DNA of 60,652 bases, taken from Alphaproteobacteria bacterium (GTDB lineage Bacteria; Pseudomonadota; Alphaproteobacteria; RS24). Of this stretch, positions 55,664 through 60,652 are shown piece after piece. Numbering within the stretch: the stretch's first letter is position 1; each line of letters starts with the position of its first letter. The stretch covers positions 1 to 60,652 of the forward strand of contig CATDDF010000028.1 in NCBI GenBank assembly GCA_949498175.1, read 5' to 3'. The translations under genes were made by a program, and so were the position numbers. The notes beneath the pieces are model-generated. The model was not told where the DNA came from and did no database searches. It was given only the letters and a program-made list of their open reading frames with translations.

Positions 55664-55696
55664 TATTTGATGATAGATGCATGGACAGAATAATAT

Positions 55697-55724
55697 TTGC
55701 ATCTCGGTCGTTATTGGCTAGAGT
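55697..55724 (+). promoter_or_regulatory. Possible promoter in the 251-nt gap before the exported protein
   Basis: TTGCATC (55697-55703), 13 nt, GCTAGAGT (55717-55724) resembles the TTGACGS-N10-14-GCTANAWC pattern. The gap 55664-55914 is otherwise AT-rich with no convincing gene; it would form a ~190-nt leader for the next gene. Confidence 0.3.
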
Positions 55725-55914
55725 TTAACGCGCATTTGTTGATTGTTTGATTCGTGATGTTAATTTTTTTGCAGGATACAGTGTTCAAGGAGAATGAATT
55801 CATCTTTTCCTTATCATTCGTCAGGGTGTTACGGAAAATTACGTCTGGAAATTGTATTGAATCGTTTTAGGCCGCTGCGCAATCTGCAAGGCGGTTTTTG
55901 TTTGGAGCGAAGTT

Positions 55915-58317
55915 ATGAGAAAAGTTTTTGTTTTGGGTTTAAGTCTAGTGCTGTCAATGCCGGGTACCGCCATTGCACAAGAAGCTTTTGAGGCTGAGGG
56001 AACGGATTTTTCTAACACTGAGACGAATGTTTGGGTTTTGGATTCGGCCAATCAACTGGTCCAGCAGTCTTCAGTTTTATCGTGTTATTTCAGCAAGTTA
56101 CGCCCAGATGTGATGAGTAATTATGAATATGAGGCGCTGATTGAATCGGAAGCGTGTAATCCCAATGCCGGCAATGGACAAGATGACCGCGAAGGAAAAG
56201 ACTATGATCGAGCGGTCGTCAAATCGACCTTGTCCACTGTATTTCCCCCGACGCAAGAAATTACGGCTTGGATATCCGGCAGTCAGGGCGGTTTTGATAC
56301 ACAGGATATTTACCACACGATTGCAAAACAAAATGCCTCCACGGCACCGCCATTTGGTGAGTGGTATTCGTCGTTCTATCGTTCCAAATATGGGGCGCTT
56401 GACATGACGCCCGACACGAGCGGCTTTTTCGGGTTTATCGATGTTACGGAGGATGATGCGGAAGATACATCACGTATGCAGTCAGGTTTATTGGTGAGCA
56501 ACACGCCTACCGATTTTTATTACATTACCTCGGTTACAGAAATTGATCGTGCCAATCGCGGCGCTGCCTTTATTGGTGTCTATGCCGACGAAGCCAATTT
56601 AGGGGTTGTTTTGACAGGCAAAGCATCGCCGGATTATTATTTTCGGGCAGATTTCTCAGCACCTGACGTATTGGATAGGGATAGTTATCAGCTTCAAGGA
56701 GTTGGCTGCTATGAGCGAGATAATCCTTATAATCTTGTTTATACCTATACGTTGTTTGATGAGCAGGGAGCCGAAAAGGAATTACAGGGCGGCTTTGGCT
56801 TCACCTATGACGATGATGGCACCGAGCAGCGCGGATATTACGGAAATTGGGGGGTTTGGTTCAATAGTAACTATAATTTCACTCCGACAAATAACAGCTT
56901 GGACGCCAGTTCCGACGGAGAATCCGGAACTTTAAAATGGGCGGCGGGCAAAATGTATAGAATGAACCAAGTAACGGAAGCATTGACCGACGGCACCACT
57001 TTTGAAACGTGGGCAGGCGGCCAGGCTGTTGCCACTTGGAATGGATTATCTTTTGACCTAGTGGCTGAAAAAGATGGCGTAAATTTGAATTATGATGAAA
57101 TAACGGGCACAGATGTTTCGAATGACCCGTGGAAAGGACATATGTGGTCACGGGAAAAAAATGCATCAGTTTATTGGGGTGGCGGCGATAGTGTCACGCT
57201 TAACGTTCGAGAAAGCGTTGTTACCAATACGGCATTATTGACGGCGGCCTCTACCGAATTTGAAGCGACGGGAGATAGGGGATTGGCTTGCACGACGGGC
57301 AATAATGACAATCTCCCTGTCACTTATGATAACGCTGATAATACCTCAGTGTTTCAGGCAAGCATAAGTGCAAACCAGAAATACTTCCTAACCGGTGCAG
57401 AGCCAGCCAATGGCTTTGAGCCGCGCACCCTATATTGCGATAAAGACAATAACGGTGAGTTGAATGCCGGTGACCTGCCTGTCCGTTATGATTTCAACGT
57501 TGCCGGTGGTAATCAATACACGACCTATGATACTTCACCTGCGACCGGAACTTATGACAAAAGTTGGCCATATCAGACAGTTGCATTGGTTCGGACGTCA
57601 GATTTTGGGACAGGTGATTGTGCCAACGACTCAAAGGCCGATTGCCAAGAATACCAATGGAGTTTTGGGGCATATCAATGGGATCAATCAACTTTGGCTT
57701 ATAATGCCGACGAGTCGTTATATATCGTCGATGAACCGATCCGCTTCAAATATGAATTTGCCGCTGCAAATGACCGCAATCAATCGGTCGGCGCCTATAC
57801 ATTTACCGCAGAAGCAGATTATGCCAATCCGCGCTTATGCACGGGCGATGCCTACGAAGTTGACGGCGTCAGCTATATAGATTGCAGTATCTCGACCAAT
57901 AGTTTTGTCGATAAAACATTCTTCTTGCAATATGACGGCACAAATTTGCATGGTCTTCCATCAGGGTCTTTCGTGGCCGGTCAATACCATTTCTGGGCAA
58001 ATCTGATAAATCTGAAGGACGGTTTGCAATTAACGGCATTGGATGGAACCAATTATCGCATCAAGGCGGTTCAGATGAGCGAAGTGCCTAAACCAGCCAA
58101 TCAGAATGACTATCAGGCATGTAAAGATGCAGGGGTATATTATGATGATGCCGAATCTCTCGGTTTGGGGCCGAGCGATGTCCCCAATCCGGGCGATCGG
58201 GCAAATTTCCCATTGCCGTCAGCTACGCCAGCCTCACAGCCTGATGACGACAATTTGTTGTGCACCGTAACCCACGGGGATACGACCAGTTGCGAAGCCG
58301 CTATTGCAGCGCAGTAA
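55915..58317 (+). CDS. Large exported protein of unknown function
   Basis: An 800-residue protein I do not recognise. A clear signal peptide (RKVFVLGLSLVLSMPGTAIAQ) precedes a Tyr/Asn/Asp/Gly-rich, beta-type mature part with little basic charge. About 12 cysteines are scattered, suited to disulfides. Residues ~510-521 (DKDNNGELNAGD) match the EF-hand/dockerin-type calcium loop DxDxNGxLxxxD. There is no sorting tail, repeat or barrel end that I can see, so it is probably periplasmic or released. Base composition looks more AT-rich than the core genes. It is followed by a 54-residue lipoprotein gene. Confidence 0.75.
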   Translation: MRKVFVLGLSLVLSMPGTAIAQEAFEAEGTDFSNTETNVWVLDSANQLVQQSSVLSCYFSKLRPDVMSNYEYEALIESEACNPNAGNGQDDREGKDYDRAVVKSTLSTVFPPTQEITAWISGSQGGFDTQDIYHTIAKQNASTAPPFGEWYSSFYRSKYGALDMTPDTSGFFGFIDVTEDDAEDTSRMQSGLLVSNTPTDFYYITSVTEIDRANRGAAFIGVYADEANLGVVLTGKASPDYYFRADFSAPDVLDRDSYQLQGVGCYERDNPYNLVYTYTLFDEQGAEKELQGGFGFTYDDDGTEQRGYYGNWGVWFNSNYNFTPTNNSLDASSDGESGTLKWAAGKMYRMNQVTEALTDGTTFETWAGGQAVATWNGLSFDLVAEKDGVNLNYDEITGTDVSNDPWKGHMWSREKNASVYWGGGDSVTLNVRESVVTNTALLTAASTEFEATGDRGLACTTGNNDNLPVTYDNADNTSVFQASISANQKYFLTGAEPANGFEPRTLYCDKDNNGELNAGDLPVRYDFNVAGGNQYTTYDTSPATGTYDKSWPYQTVALVRTSDFGTGDCANDSKADCQEYQWSFGAYQWDQSTLAYNADESLYIVDEPIRFKYEFAAANDRNQSVGAYTFTAEADYANPRLCTGDAYEVDGVSYIDCSISTNSFVDKTFFLQYDGTNLHGLPSGSFVAGQYHFWANLINLKDGLQLTALDGTNYRIKAVQMSEVPKPANQNDYQACKDAGVYYDDAESLGLGPSDVPNPGDRANFPLPSATPASQPDDDNLLCTVTHGDTTSCEAAIAAQ

Positions 58318-58377
58318 ATGAGGGAAGAGAAAAGTTTCAGTAAACTGAATTTTACTCGCCTGTTTAGGAGCATTAAA

Positions 58378-58542
58378 ATGTTAAAATTTATTTCGGTTAC
58401 CATCTTTTCATTGGCGCTTGCTGCCTGTAGCGGCGGAGGCGGTAGCGACGGGTCAAGTTCCAGCTCGGATTCGCAAGCACCGGCCTTTACTGGCTTTAGC
58501 GCGCCCGAGGGGATCTCGCCTGTGCCCCCGCGCGAGGATTAA
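58378..58542 (+). CDS. Small lipoprotein, unknown function
   Basis: A 54-residue protein with signal LKFISVTIFSLALAACSGGG: the lipobox LAAC puts the lipid on C17, followed by Gly/Ser-rich linker and a Pro-rich ending. After cleavage only ~38 residues remain, with no domain. ATG 58378 is taken because AGGAG lies 7 nt before it; the ATG at 58318 directly after the preceding stop has no ribosome site. It sits 60 nt after the 800-residue gene and is probably cotranscribed. Confidence 0.7.
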   Translation: MLKFISVTIFSLALAACSGGGGSDGSSSSSDSQAPAFTGFSAPEGISPVPPRED

Positions 58543-58574
58543 GCAGCGCGGCAATCGACCACTTTAGGACGGCA

Positions 58575-58597
58575 AGGCAGCTTGGATAATGCTGCCT
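58575..58597 (+). other. Hairpin after the small lipoprotein gene
   Basis: AGGCAGC (58575-58581) pairs with GCTGCCT (58591-58597) around a 9-nt loop. It is followed by GCTGAAT, not T-rich, so termination is uncertain. Confidence 0.3.
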
Positions 58598-58658
58598 GCT
58601 GAATACTTATCGATGGAGGTTGAAACCGATATCCATATGGTCTAAGCACTCTTGCAGT

Positions 58659-58735
58659 CGGGGCTTGGCGCAGTCTGGTAGCGCACCTGGTTTGGGACCA
58701 GGGGGTCGCAAGTTCGAATCTTGCAGCCCCGACCA
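58659..58735 (+). tRNA. tRNA-Pro(UGG)
   Basis: 77 nt with encoded CCA. Acceptor CGGGGCT (58659-58665) pairs with AGCCCCG (58725-58731), then A plus CCA. The anticodon stem CCTGG/CCAGG encloses TTTGGGA, giving anticodon TGG (58693-58695); the T arm carries AGTTCGAATCT. Confidence 0.97.
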
Positions 58736-58858: not shown

Positions 58859-58902
58859 TTTGCCGTTCTATTTCGACAATAGAACGGCAAATAGAACGGC
58901 AA
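58859..58902. repeat. 14-bp perfect inverted repeat with a tandem third copy
   Basis: TTTGCCGTTCTATT (58859-58872) and AATAGAACGGCAAA (58878-58891) are exact reverse complements around TCGAC. The 12-bp unit ATAGAACGGCAA is then repeated in tandem (58879-58890 and 58891-58902). It lies 124 nt after tRNA-Pro in a 236-nt gap (58736-58971) with no credible gene. Such a cluster suits binding by a recombinase or regulator. Confidence 0.6.
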
Positions 58903-58971: not shown

Positions 58972-59865
58972 TTATTCCTCGCTTACCGTGACAGTTCGGC
59001 CATTCAGTACAACTTGCGAGACAAGTAGGGTTCCGTTCACGTCAAATGTATAAGCGTTAATTGCGTCTGTAAGATTAAAACCAATTCGTAGGCCCTCGGT
59101 TTCGTTATTAATTGTTATAGGGCTTTGCTTTTGCATCACCGTAAGCATGAATGAAATGTCTTCGGAAGATTCTGCAAGTCGCTTTTCTTGGTCTAATAAA
59201 TAAACGTTCTGATAAGCGTCTGCAGAAGGAGTAAAATTCGCGACTGTGGAAGATGCTTCAGGAACTGACATTATTGGTTGGAAAGTATTCGCAAAAAAAT
59301 TGTTTACCCGAACGGTAGATAGTCGCTTTATTTCGGGGTCTGTGTCGGTGCAATGACTGGCATAGGAATTGGGGGACTGGTACATATGGTCCAAATTCAC
59401 CGGGTAGTTAGGGGCCTGGCAAAACCGTCCTTGAAGAAACCCTGGCTCTCCAGTTTCGGTTCCACCTGTAATCTGTTGAGCATATTCGGCCACACCCTGA
59501 TATTGAGCCTCGTTCTCAATAACAACGTAGAAATAGCTATAATCCCCGTTAGGAGGGCGAACTACGTCTACAGCCTCTTGAGTAGAGCCAAAGGTTAAAT
59601 CAACAGAAATTTCATTCGCTAACACACTTTCACAGCTGTCTAGTTGTCCTGCCGATGTTGTAAATTCTGGTAATGCTTTACACAGTCCAATATCGTTTAC
59701 TTGGTAGATTATTCTTTCCGCGTCGGTACGACAAATAGATAGGGGATCATTTCCAGATATCACTAATTGCCCATCCTCATTTTTTGAGCATGCAGCATGG
59801 GCCGTTGTGGTCAAAAAAATGACCGTTGAAACGGCTGCTAATATAGCTGTCCGCGTCCTTTCCAT
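58972..59865 (-). CDS. Exported protein of unknown function next to the barrel gene
   Basis: A 297-residue protein I do not recognise. The signal peptide (TAILAAVSTVIFLTTTAHA) ends at a clear AHA site. The mature part has seven cysteines, mostly in its first half (ACSKNEDG, ICRTDAE, LCKALPE, SCESVLA, FCQAPNY, HCTDTD), and a beta-rich C-terminus ending VLNGRTVTVSEE. It begins 2 nt after the preceding barrel gene's stop, with GAAGGA of the barrel's last codons as ribosome site, so translation is coupled. Moderate to low GC compared with core genes. Confidence 0.72.
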   Translation of the reverse strand: MERTRTAILAAVSTVIFLTTTAHAACSKNEDGQLVISGNDPLSICRTDAERIIYQVNDIGLCKALPEFTTSAGQLDSCESVLANEISVDLTFGSTQEAVDVVRPPNGDYSYFYVVIENEAQYQGVAEYAQQITGGTETGEPGFLQGRFCQAPNYPVNLDHMYQSPNSYASHCTDTDPEIKRLSTVRVNNFFANTFQPIMSVPEASSTVANFTPSADAYQNVYLLDQEKRLAESSEDISFMLTVMQKQSPITINNETEGLRIGFNLTDAINAYTFDVNGTLLVSQVVLNGRTVTVSEE

Positions 59866-59867
59866 GT

Positions 59868-60652
59868 CTAAATTCCTTCAAATGTTATGGAGAAACCATT
59901 TTGCGTATTTTGCTTCACAATCTGATTGCTCCGCCGGACTTTTTCGAAGCGGCGCTCCGTGATGTCGACCAGCGCATAGGCTTTATCTGATAGCAAGACC
60001 GGCTGCTGCACATATTGTTGCTGGTGAAAGCGGGCGACATTGAAAGACAGCGAAACAAAATCCGCATCATTGGCTGCATTATTGTCATAAGAGGTGCTGC
60101 CCGCTTCCAATTCAAAACCCATCGGCAAAGCTGAGCGCAGGCTTATCGTGTCGCCTTCGAGGTCATTAGCACCGTTCTCGCCATCCCATTTGAAGCTTTT
60201 GGCATGAACACGGGTATTGGGCAGATAGGGGAGTGGGACAGCTAATTCCATATCCATTCCATCTAGTGCTGTTTCTTCTGCGCCATTGACGTTTTCGGTG
60301 TCTGACAGAGCCGTATAGCTGTTAACCCTAAAGTCTCCGACAGAGGTTAAGACTTCTCCGCCAACACTCATCCGTTCGTGGCCCGCATCCCATTCATTGT
60401 CATAAAACAGATTGAGCCCAGCAATGACCTTGCCGTCATTTAAAATCCAGCGCTGTCCGAGACCGAGATTGAGCGTGTCATCATCATCTGTGGCGATGAC
60501 GCTGCCTTGAAAGAAAGTGGCGCGACCGGCTTCTGCATTGTCATAAAGCGGCTGAACGGTGAAGATTGAAAACCGCGTATCGTCGCCATCCAAATCGGTA
60601 ATATCAATTTCGACATTTCGGAACCGCTCAGAGAGCGATTGTTCAATGCGAG
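59868..60652 (-). CDS. Inverse-autotransporter (intimin/invasin-like) beta-barrel protein, 5' end outside window
   Basis: The frame is open to the window edge and ends with 260 residues seen. It matches the inverse-autotransporter beta-domain: NLGLGQRWILNDGKVIAGLNLFYDNEWDAGHERMSVGGEVL contains the typical GxGxRW..GxNxFYDxxxxxxHxRxxxGxE pattern, and the region ends ERRFEKVRRSNQIV, like the end of the barrel/linker in this family. Alternating strands (SIFTVQPLYDN, FVSLSFNVARFHQQ) support an outer-membrane barrel. Instead of the expected passenger Ig repeats, the frame stops ~25 residues after RRFEKVRRSN. The N-terminus (signal, LysM?) is not in view. Confidence 0.82.
   Translation of the reverse strand, partial: RIEQSLSERFRNVEIDITDLDGDDTRFSIFTVQPLYDNAEAGRATFFQGSVIATDDDDTLNLGLGQRWILNDGKVIAGLNLFYDNEWDAGHERMSVGGEVLTSVGDFRVNSYTALSDTENVNGAEETALDGMDMELAVPLPYLPNTRVHAKSFKWDGENGANDLEGDTISLRSALPMGFELEAGSTSYDNNAANDADFVSLSFNVARFHQQQYVQQPVLLSDKAYALVDITERRFEKVRRSNQIVKQNTQNGFSITFEGI

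Follow-up and report, generated by a model that had tools for sequence, protein, structure and literature searches.

Two adjacent plus-strand genes of an alphaproteobacterial genome, one for an 800-residue exported protein and one for a 54-residue lipoprotein (mini-lipoprotein), appear to encode a single lipid-anchored envelope protein in two pieces, in which the mini-lipoprotein would be a detached N-terminal anchor that docks on its partner by its tail. We regard this interpretation, which is based on sequence comparison, as reasonably likely. More tentatively, we propose that the lipidated mini-lipoprotein holds the first strand of its partner's fold and, from outside, fastens this partner to the membrane, that relatives contain the covalent form of the same arrangement, and that switches between one-gene and two-gene forms have occurred more than once. 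The pair lies in the window, by which we mean the whole 60,652-nucleotide stretch of DNA analyzed, from a 1.68-Mb alphaproteobacterial MAG.

The exported protein and its family

The larger gene (55915..58317, + strand) was delimited by its open reading frame and by homologs found in profile searches, and it belongs to the split type of the family described below. The N-terminus of its 800-residue product is MRKVFVLGLSLVLSMPGTAIAQ, a Sec signal peptide without a lipobox. As read from the sequence, the predicted signal peptide covers residues 1-21 (55915..55977, + strand), with a putative cleavage site at AIA. These features agree with the claim of a sequence-only reading of this DNA that an exported protein of 800 residues with a signal peptide is encoded here. 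Two conserved cysteines, Cys57 (56083..56085, + strand) and Cys81 (56155..56157, + strand), covary; both are present in 42/52 family members, neither is present in 10/52, and no member has one alone. Cys57 and Cys81 probably form a disulfide in the exported domain.

The sequence-only reading had also singled out an EF-hand-type loop. The loop DKDNNGELNAGD is present at residues 509-520 (57439..57474, + strand) and fits the EF-hand loop pattern, but it does not define the family. It was found in 0/51 other members in an alignment of 52, and a paralog that is 38% identical has DSDGVSGLTADD at the same position. The calcium loop is therefore not a family feature, and we rejected it as a family trait; a calcium site may be private to the window protein.

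Neither the 800-residue protein nor the mini-lipoprotein had a Pfam or NCBIfam match above the curated cut-off, scans of about 15 different big proteins against curated families gave none above cut-off, and the large protein had no PDB match by sequence or by profile search. The description of the protein as an orphan was not supported, since by profile search it is a member of an undescribed family of at least 52 members, mostly of 450-900 residues. Within open-access papers on small lipoprotein partners and split lipoproteins, this family is not described.

Family members occurred in a few genomes of the window's genus, in a patchy set of Gammaproteobacteria, and in two Planctomycetota MAGs. 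The host genome encodes one paralog (contig C80; the 38% identity extends over its full length), and genome G009 of the same genus (JAKMCZ010000275, MOX_bin7) contains a family fragment at a contig edge. The two Planctomycetota relatives (L012 and L013), found by profile search of named genomes, are about 24% identical to the window protein, and gammaproteobacterial members outside the building set of the profile matched with E values down to 1e-146. Profile searches detected members in 8/398 Pseudomonadota genomes, in 26/369 genomes (23/272 genera) of the class of genome G625, and in 15/121 genomes of the bacterial family of G625, which is probably Vibrionaceae, judging from its large two-replicon genomes. 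Plasmid and viral collections contained no family relatives.

At one locus (L039:3589-7755), the middle third of the domain is missing from two paralogs of the fused type, which have 505 and 525 residues, and from these paralogs the N- and C-terminal parts of the family domain seem to form its core. At another locus (L031:20-5514), an IS-type transposase lies between two lipoprotein genes whose products have near-identical TVATTTT tails beyond the Cys, and the family domain is in the second gene only. At L029:3748-8226 and in genus g341, the domain is joined to an N-terminal region of roughly 500 residues with a weak carboxypeptidase-regulatory-like match, in open frames of up to 1836 residues.

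The mini-lipoprotein and its fused counterparts

The mini-lipoprotein gene (58378..58542, + strand) starts at an ATG inside ORF 58318-58542, which gives a product of 54 residues, and lies 60 nt beyond the stop of the 800-codon ORF. It is preceded by a ribosome-binding site, AGGAG, read from the sequence (58366..58370, + strand). The lipobox LAAC (residues 14-17; 58417..58428, + strand) contains the predicted lipidated Cys17, followed by Ser at +2 and hence by no Asp inner-membrane retention signal. The good lipobox and ribosome site claimed earlier are thus both present, and relatives of the mini-lipoprotein occur in 21 other pairs. In enterobacteria, Asp at +2 leads to inner-membrane retention, and lipoproteins with other residues are delivered to the outer membrane. 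Asp at +2 was found in no mini-lipoprotein examined, so outer-membrane delivery would be expected under this rule, which may not hold in this genus.

The tail beyond the Cys has 37 residues. The earlier statement that the protein has almost no mature domain understated this tail, which is the conserved part of the mini-lipoprotein. Its motif GFSAPEGISPVP (residues 39-50; 58492..58527, + strand) matches GLQAPEQVSIV in the fused proteins from Planctomycetota, as well as LQLPQQLEVV and GISTPSTVSVV of other mini-lipoproteins; the window's own version (EGISPV) is among the least typical of the family. PADLOC and PHROGs gave only lipobox-level matches to the mini-lipoprotein and nothing useful. The LptM model NF047847 did not match the window mini-lipoprotein, and its best match elsewhere scored 13.6 bits compared to a cut-off of 27.7.

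In two genera of the G625 family, pN/pS of the mini ORF was 0.34 (8 genomes) and 0.30 (5 genomes), compared to 0.18 and 0.13, respectively, for the big genes. The tail ...STSSLQLPQQLEVVTNE was unchanged in 8 genomes with silent differences in nearly all codons (pooled pS 0.73), and the signal peptides of the mini-lipoproteins diverged where this tail stayed constant. The tail motif is under purifying selection. Moreover, these pN/pS values and the full-length relatives beside 21 further big genes imply that the mini ORF is a genuine gene. Pairing with the big gene is likewise well supported. Among 121 genomes of the G625 family, full-length matches to a mini-lipoprotein profile (E <= 2.5e-17) were found in exactly the 15 that hold the big gene and in 0/106 big-less genomes, and the next-best match (E = 2.4e-8) covered mainly the signal-peptide and lipobox part of a longer lipoprotein.

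The 52 members analyzed, which include some from related genomes, comprise 30 fused and 22 split forms. In the fused form, one chain carries the lipobox Cys, a Gly/Ser-rich linker, the motif, a variable linker, and the folded domain; N-termini were visible in 25/30, and the remaining five members were cut by contig or locus ends. In the split form, the big gene has an ordinary signal peptide and an adjacent gene encodes a lipoprotein of 46-65 residues with the order Cys, linker, motif, in which the motif ends at most 6 residues from the C-terminus. The break point between the two pieces always falls in the variable linker that separates motif from domain. The two Planctomycetota proteins begin with MRKFVCSSFVLLALAACGGGGSTATGDVQGLQAPEQVSIVDSE, a lipoprotein start similar to the mini-lipoprotein, and have the homologous domain downstream on the same chain. 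Their N-terminal segment ...LAACGGGGSTATGDVQGLQAPEQVSIV... runs into that domain, as in many gammaproteobacterial members.

In a uniform, motif-blind scan that reached 500 nt from each big gene, a mini-lipoprotein was adjacent to 22/22 genes of the split type and to 0/25 of the fused type, and a scan of 307 kb of loci for motif-bearing mini ORFs found none away from the pairs. As to whether the mini-lipoprotein gene always follows the big gene, adjacency was constant in the split members but order was not. It is upstream in 21/22 pairs, with a 14-nt overlap in ten and otherwise short gaps that are longer in L087, and downstream in the window only. Gene order therefore differs between the two pairs of the window genome; the paralog's mini-lipoprotein (52 residues, 50% identical to that of the window) is encoded upstream of its big gene (L003:1261-1416).

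The motif can be written as G-[LIYVF]-x-x-P-x-x-[ILMVF]-[SED]-[VAPIF]-[VI], or more narrowly as G-[LIF]-x-x-P-x-x-[ILMV]-[SE]-[VAP]-[VI]. It was present in 19/22 mini-lipoproteins, compared to a mean of 0.04 and a maximum of 2 in shuffles of the same residues, and in 20/24 fused proteins (shuffle mean 0.2, maximum 4). The Pro is missing in the mini-lipoproteins of L086 and L087, L020 has a doubtful motif, and the versions in genus g341 are degenerate. In g341, the motif-like stretches LTLGTNVSVVDNK, LTLGNKVSVVDTK, and LSIASKVAVADKK lie directly before the domain, the N-terminal region of about 500 residues is different, and the lipobox (G427) is about 600 residues upstream of the motif. This arrangement implies that the motif travels with the domain and not with the lipid signal. 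As judged from these alignments, the motif is more than a lipoprotein-sorting signal.

The split members did not form one clade in the family tree, in which 4 changes of form were counted and the AU test gave p = 0.004 after the longest branches were removed; basal support in this tree is limited and several branches are long. The 22 split members span about six to eight independent lineages. Given this scatter over the tree, the one-gene and two-gene architectures have apparently interchanged.

The locus at tRNA-Pro

A gene for tRNA-Pro(TGG) (58659..58735, + strand) lies 3' of the pair. On its 5' side, the pair is preceded by a thioesterase gene. In seven relatives from the genus, only roughly 40-60 nt separate this thioesterase gene from tRNA-Pro and the pair is missing, and genome G003 matches the window on both flanks (88% and 98%) with the pair missing. 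The comparison with close relatives that had been suggested earlier thus revealed a difference in presence and absence. Given this junction in seven relatives, the pair is, in the window species, an accessory insertion of about 2.95 kb (roughly 55665-58617). Its G+C content is 0.47 compared to about 0.51 upstream, it has no terminal repeats, and no integrase was recognized among the listed ORFs.

The genes on the far (3') side of tRNA-Pro differ among relatives. By this comparison, the thioesterase-tRNA-Pro(TGG) junction (window 55665-58735) is an insertion hotspot in the genus, and the two sides of tRNA-Pro appear to have received accessory insertions separately. On the far side of the window are an inverse-autotransporter beta-barrel gene (59871-60650, - strand; PF11924, E=2e-31), which is cut by the contig end, and, after it, a gene for a 297-residue exported protein without a family match (58975-59865, - strand). 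Both are accessory compared to other genomes of the genus, and the PF11924 match was confined to this neighbor, with none in the big and mini pair. Since the far-side genes vary, the inverse-autotransporter pair need not be functionally linked to the big and mini pair. The proposal that the two form one surface-protein block was not sustained, given this variation and the seven relatives without the pair at tRNA-Pro. A perfect 14-nt inverted repeat (TTTGCCGTTCTATT; window 58859-58891) between tRNA-Pro and the barrel pair is possibly a terminator or a repeat element.

The paralog pair and the G009 copy lie convergent to an operon for type II secretion that runs from gspC to gspN (L005:2701-13270, L007:508-11086), an adjacency seen in the window's genus only. 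This adjacency makes export by type II secretion plausible, and the protein is possibly carried to the surface in this way. The operon ends in a gene for a lipoprotein of roughly 160 residues and no known family, which might be a pilotin.

A proposed lipid anchor in trans and its alternatives

The suggestion of a membrane anchor, made in the sequence-only reading, is the best reading of the mini-lipoprotein because the same segment is built into the big protein of relatives. In the model that we favor, the 54-residue lipoprotein would be an anchor module consisting of a lipidated Cys, a flexible Gly/Ser linker, and a short motif of alternating hydrophobicity, and the 800-residue protein would be a folded, probably disulfide-bonded, mostly beta domain exported through Sec by its own signal peptide. 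The lipidated mini-lipoprotein, probably in the outer membrane, would present its C-terminal motif, which would dock onto its partner, with beta-strand addition as the most likely mode, like the same segment in cis. The docked motif would then tether the big protein non-covalently to the membrane. We infer outer-membrane location, docking, strand addition, and cell-surface exposure from the sequences; AlphaFold2 models made from a four-sequence input had a mean pLDDT of 30 for a fused Planctomycetota protein and 27 for the window protein and were unusable. Split forms scattered over the tree and differing gene order would be expected if the module works in trans.

The mini-lipoprotein might instead be, like LptM for LptD, a dedicated factor in folding or assembly, whose tail binds transiently in the periplasm and aids disulfide formation or secretion handover without a lasting anchor. 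It is small, lipidated, strictly partnered, and conserved in its tail, its partner has a covarying Cys pair, and a binding tail on a tiny lipoprotein has a precedent in LptM (PMC10567701). We consider this role unlikely, because the segment built into the fused relatives would there be a permanent anchor, and because the motif is retained, without the Cys pair, in the two proteins from Planctomycetota and in eight fused members that belong to one clade; these ten members imply that the motif is not tied to oxidation. Alternatively, a third party, such as the type II secretion machine, a surface-lipoprotein exporter, or a protease, could read the tail as a signal for sorting or secretion, and the split mini-lipoprotein would never touch the big protein. 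The gspC to gspN operon beside the paralog and the G009 copy, and the position of the motif after the lipobox in most fused proteins, are consistent with such a signal. We find it quite improbable, since the operon adjacency is confined to one genus, the motif-like stretch of g341 immediately precedes the domain at a long distance from the lipobox, and a pure tag needs no big-gene partner everywhere, yet the two genes co-occurred in 15/15 genomes compared to 0/106.

It is very doubtful that these are two unrelated surface genes on a mobile segment, with a mini-lipoprotein that works alone and a proximity due to hitchhiking. The insertion upstream of tRNA-Pro in the window species and the patchy distribution would fit this explanation, but adjacency is kept in several lineages with different neighbors, the two parts are joined in fused relatives, and none of the 106 big-less genomes of the G625 family has a mini-lipoprotein. 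Hardly credible is a spurious mini ORF or a pair that represents a degenerated fused gene. Although the ORF is short and of low complexity, it has its own ribosome site, a pN/pS of about 0.3, and a tail that is invariant despite silent changes; moreover, the signal peptide of the big gene is complete and the mini-lipoprotein is intact in 22/22 pairs.

With the anchor in trans, a previously unannotated family of large exported proteins gains a testable architecture, in which the fused relatives point to the residues for testing. A very short ORF of a kind easily dropped by annotation pipelines is a constant part of the two-gene form. If docking occurs, such a detachable anchor would put non-lipidated proteins on the membrane.

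Among known systems, TasL is a large Vibrio lipoprotein adhesin (>380 kDa) with fibronectin-like repeats that is encoded in T6SS islands (PMC9040878). Like some family members, it is a large lipoprotein predicted to lie in the outer membrane; however, it is far larger, and no T6SS gene was recognized beside the loci read here. By description, we set aside identity with TasL on size and setting. Pilins and other proteins of the envelope use donor-strand complementation, or strand addition, in which a beta fold is completed in trans by a short peptide of alternating hydrophobicity; the mechanism proposed here is of this type. Unlike in those systems, the donor would be lipidated, and we saw no sequence relation to pilins or their chaperones. 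Pullulanase-type lipoproteins are exported by type II secretion, and the proposed complex resembles them in that it would be lipidated, would include a folded domain, and possibly reaches the surface by that route. Their lipid anchor, however, is on the same chain, and the use of type II secretion here is suggested by neighborhood only. Like the mini-lipoprotein, LptM (YifL), a small lipoprotein partner of LptD/LptE (PMC10567701), is very short, and its mature part is a conserved peptide. This peptide binds in trans to a larger envelope protein, as is predicted here for the mini-lipoprotein. In contrast, the partner of LptM is an outer-membrane barrel, whose oxidation it helps, whereas the big protein is of a soluble type, is exported, and has homologs in fused form.
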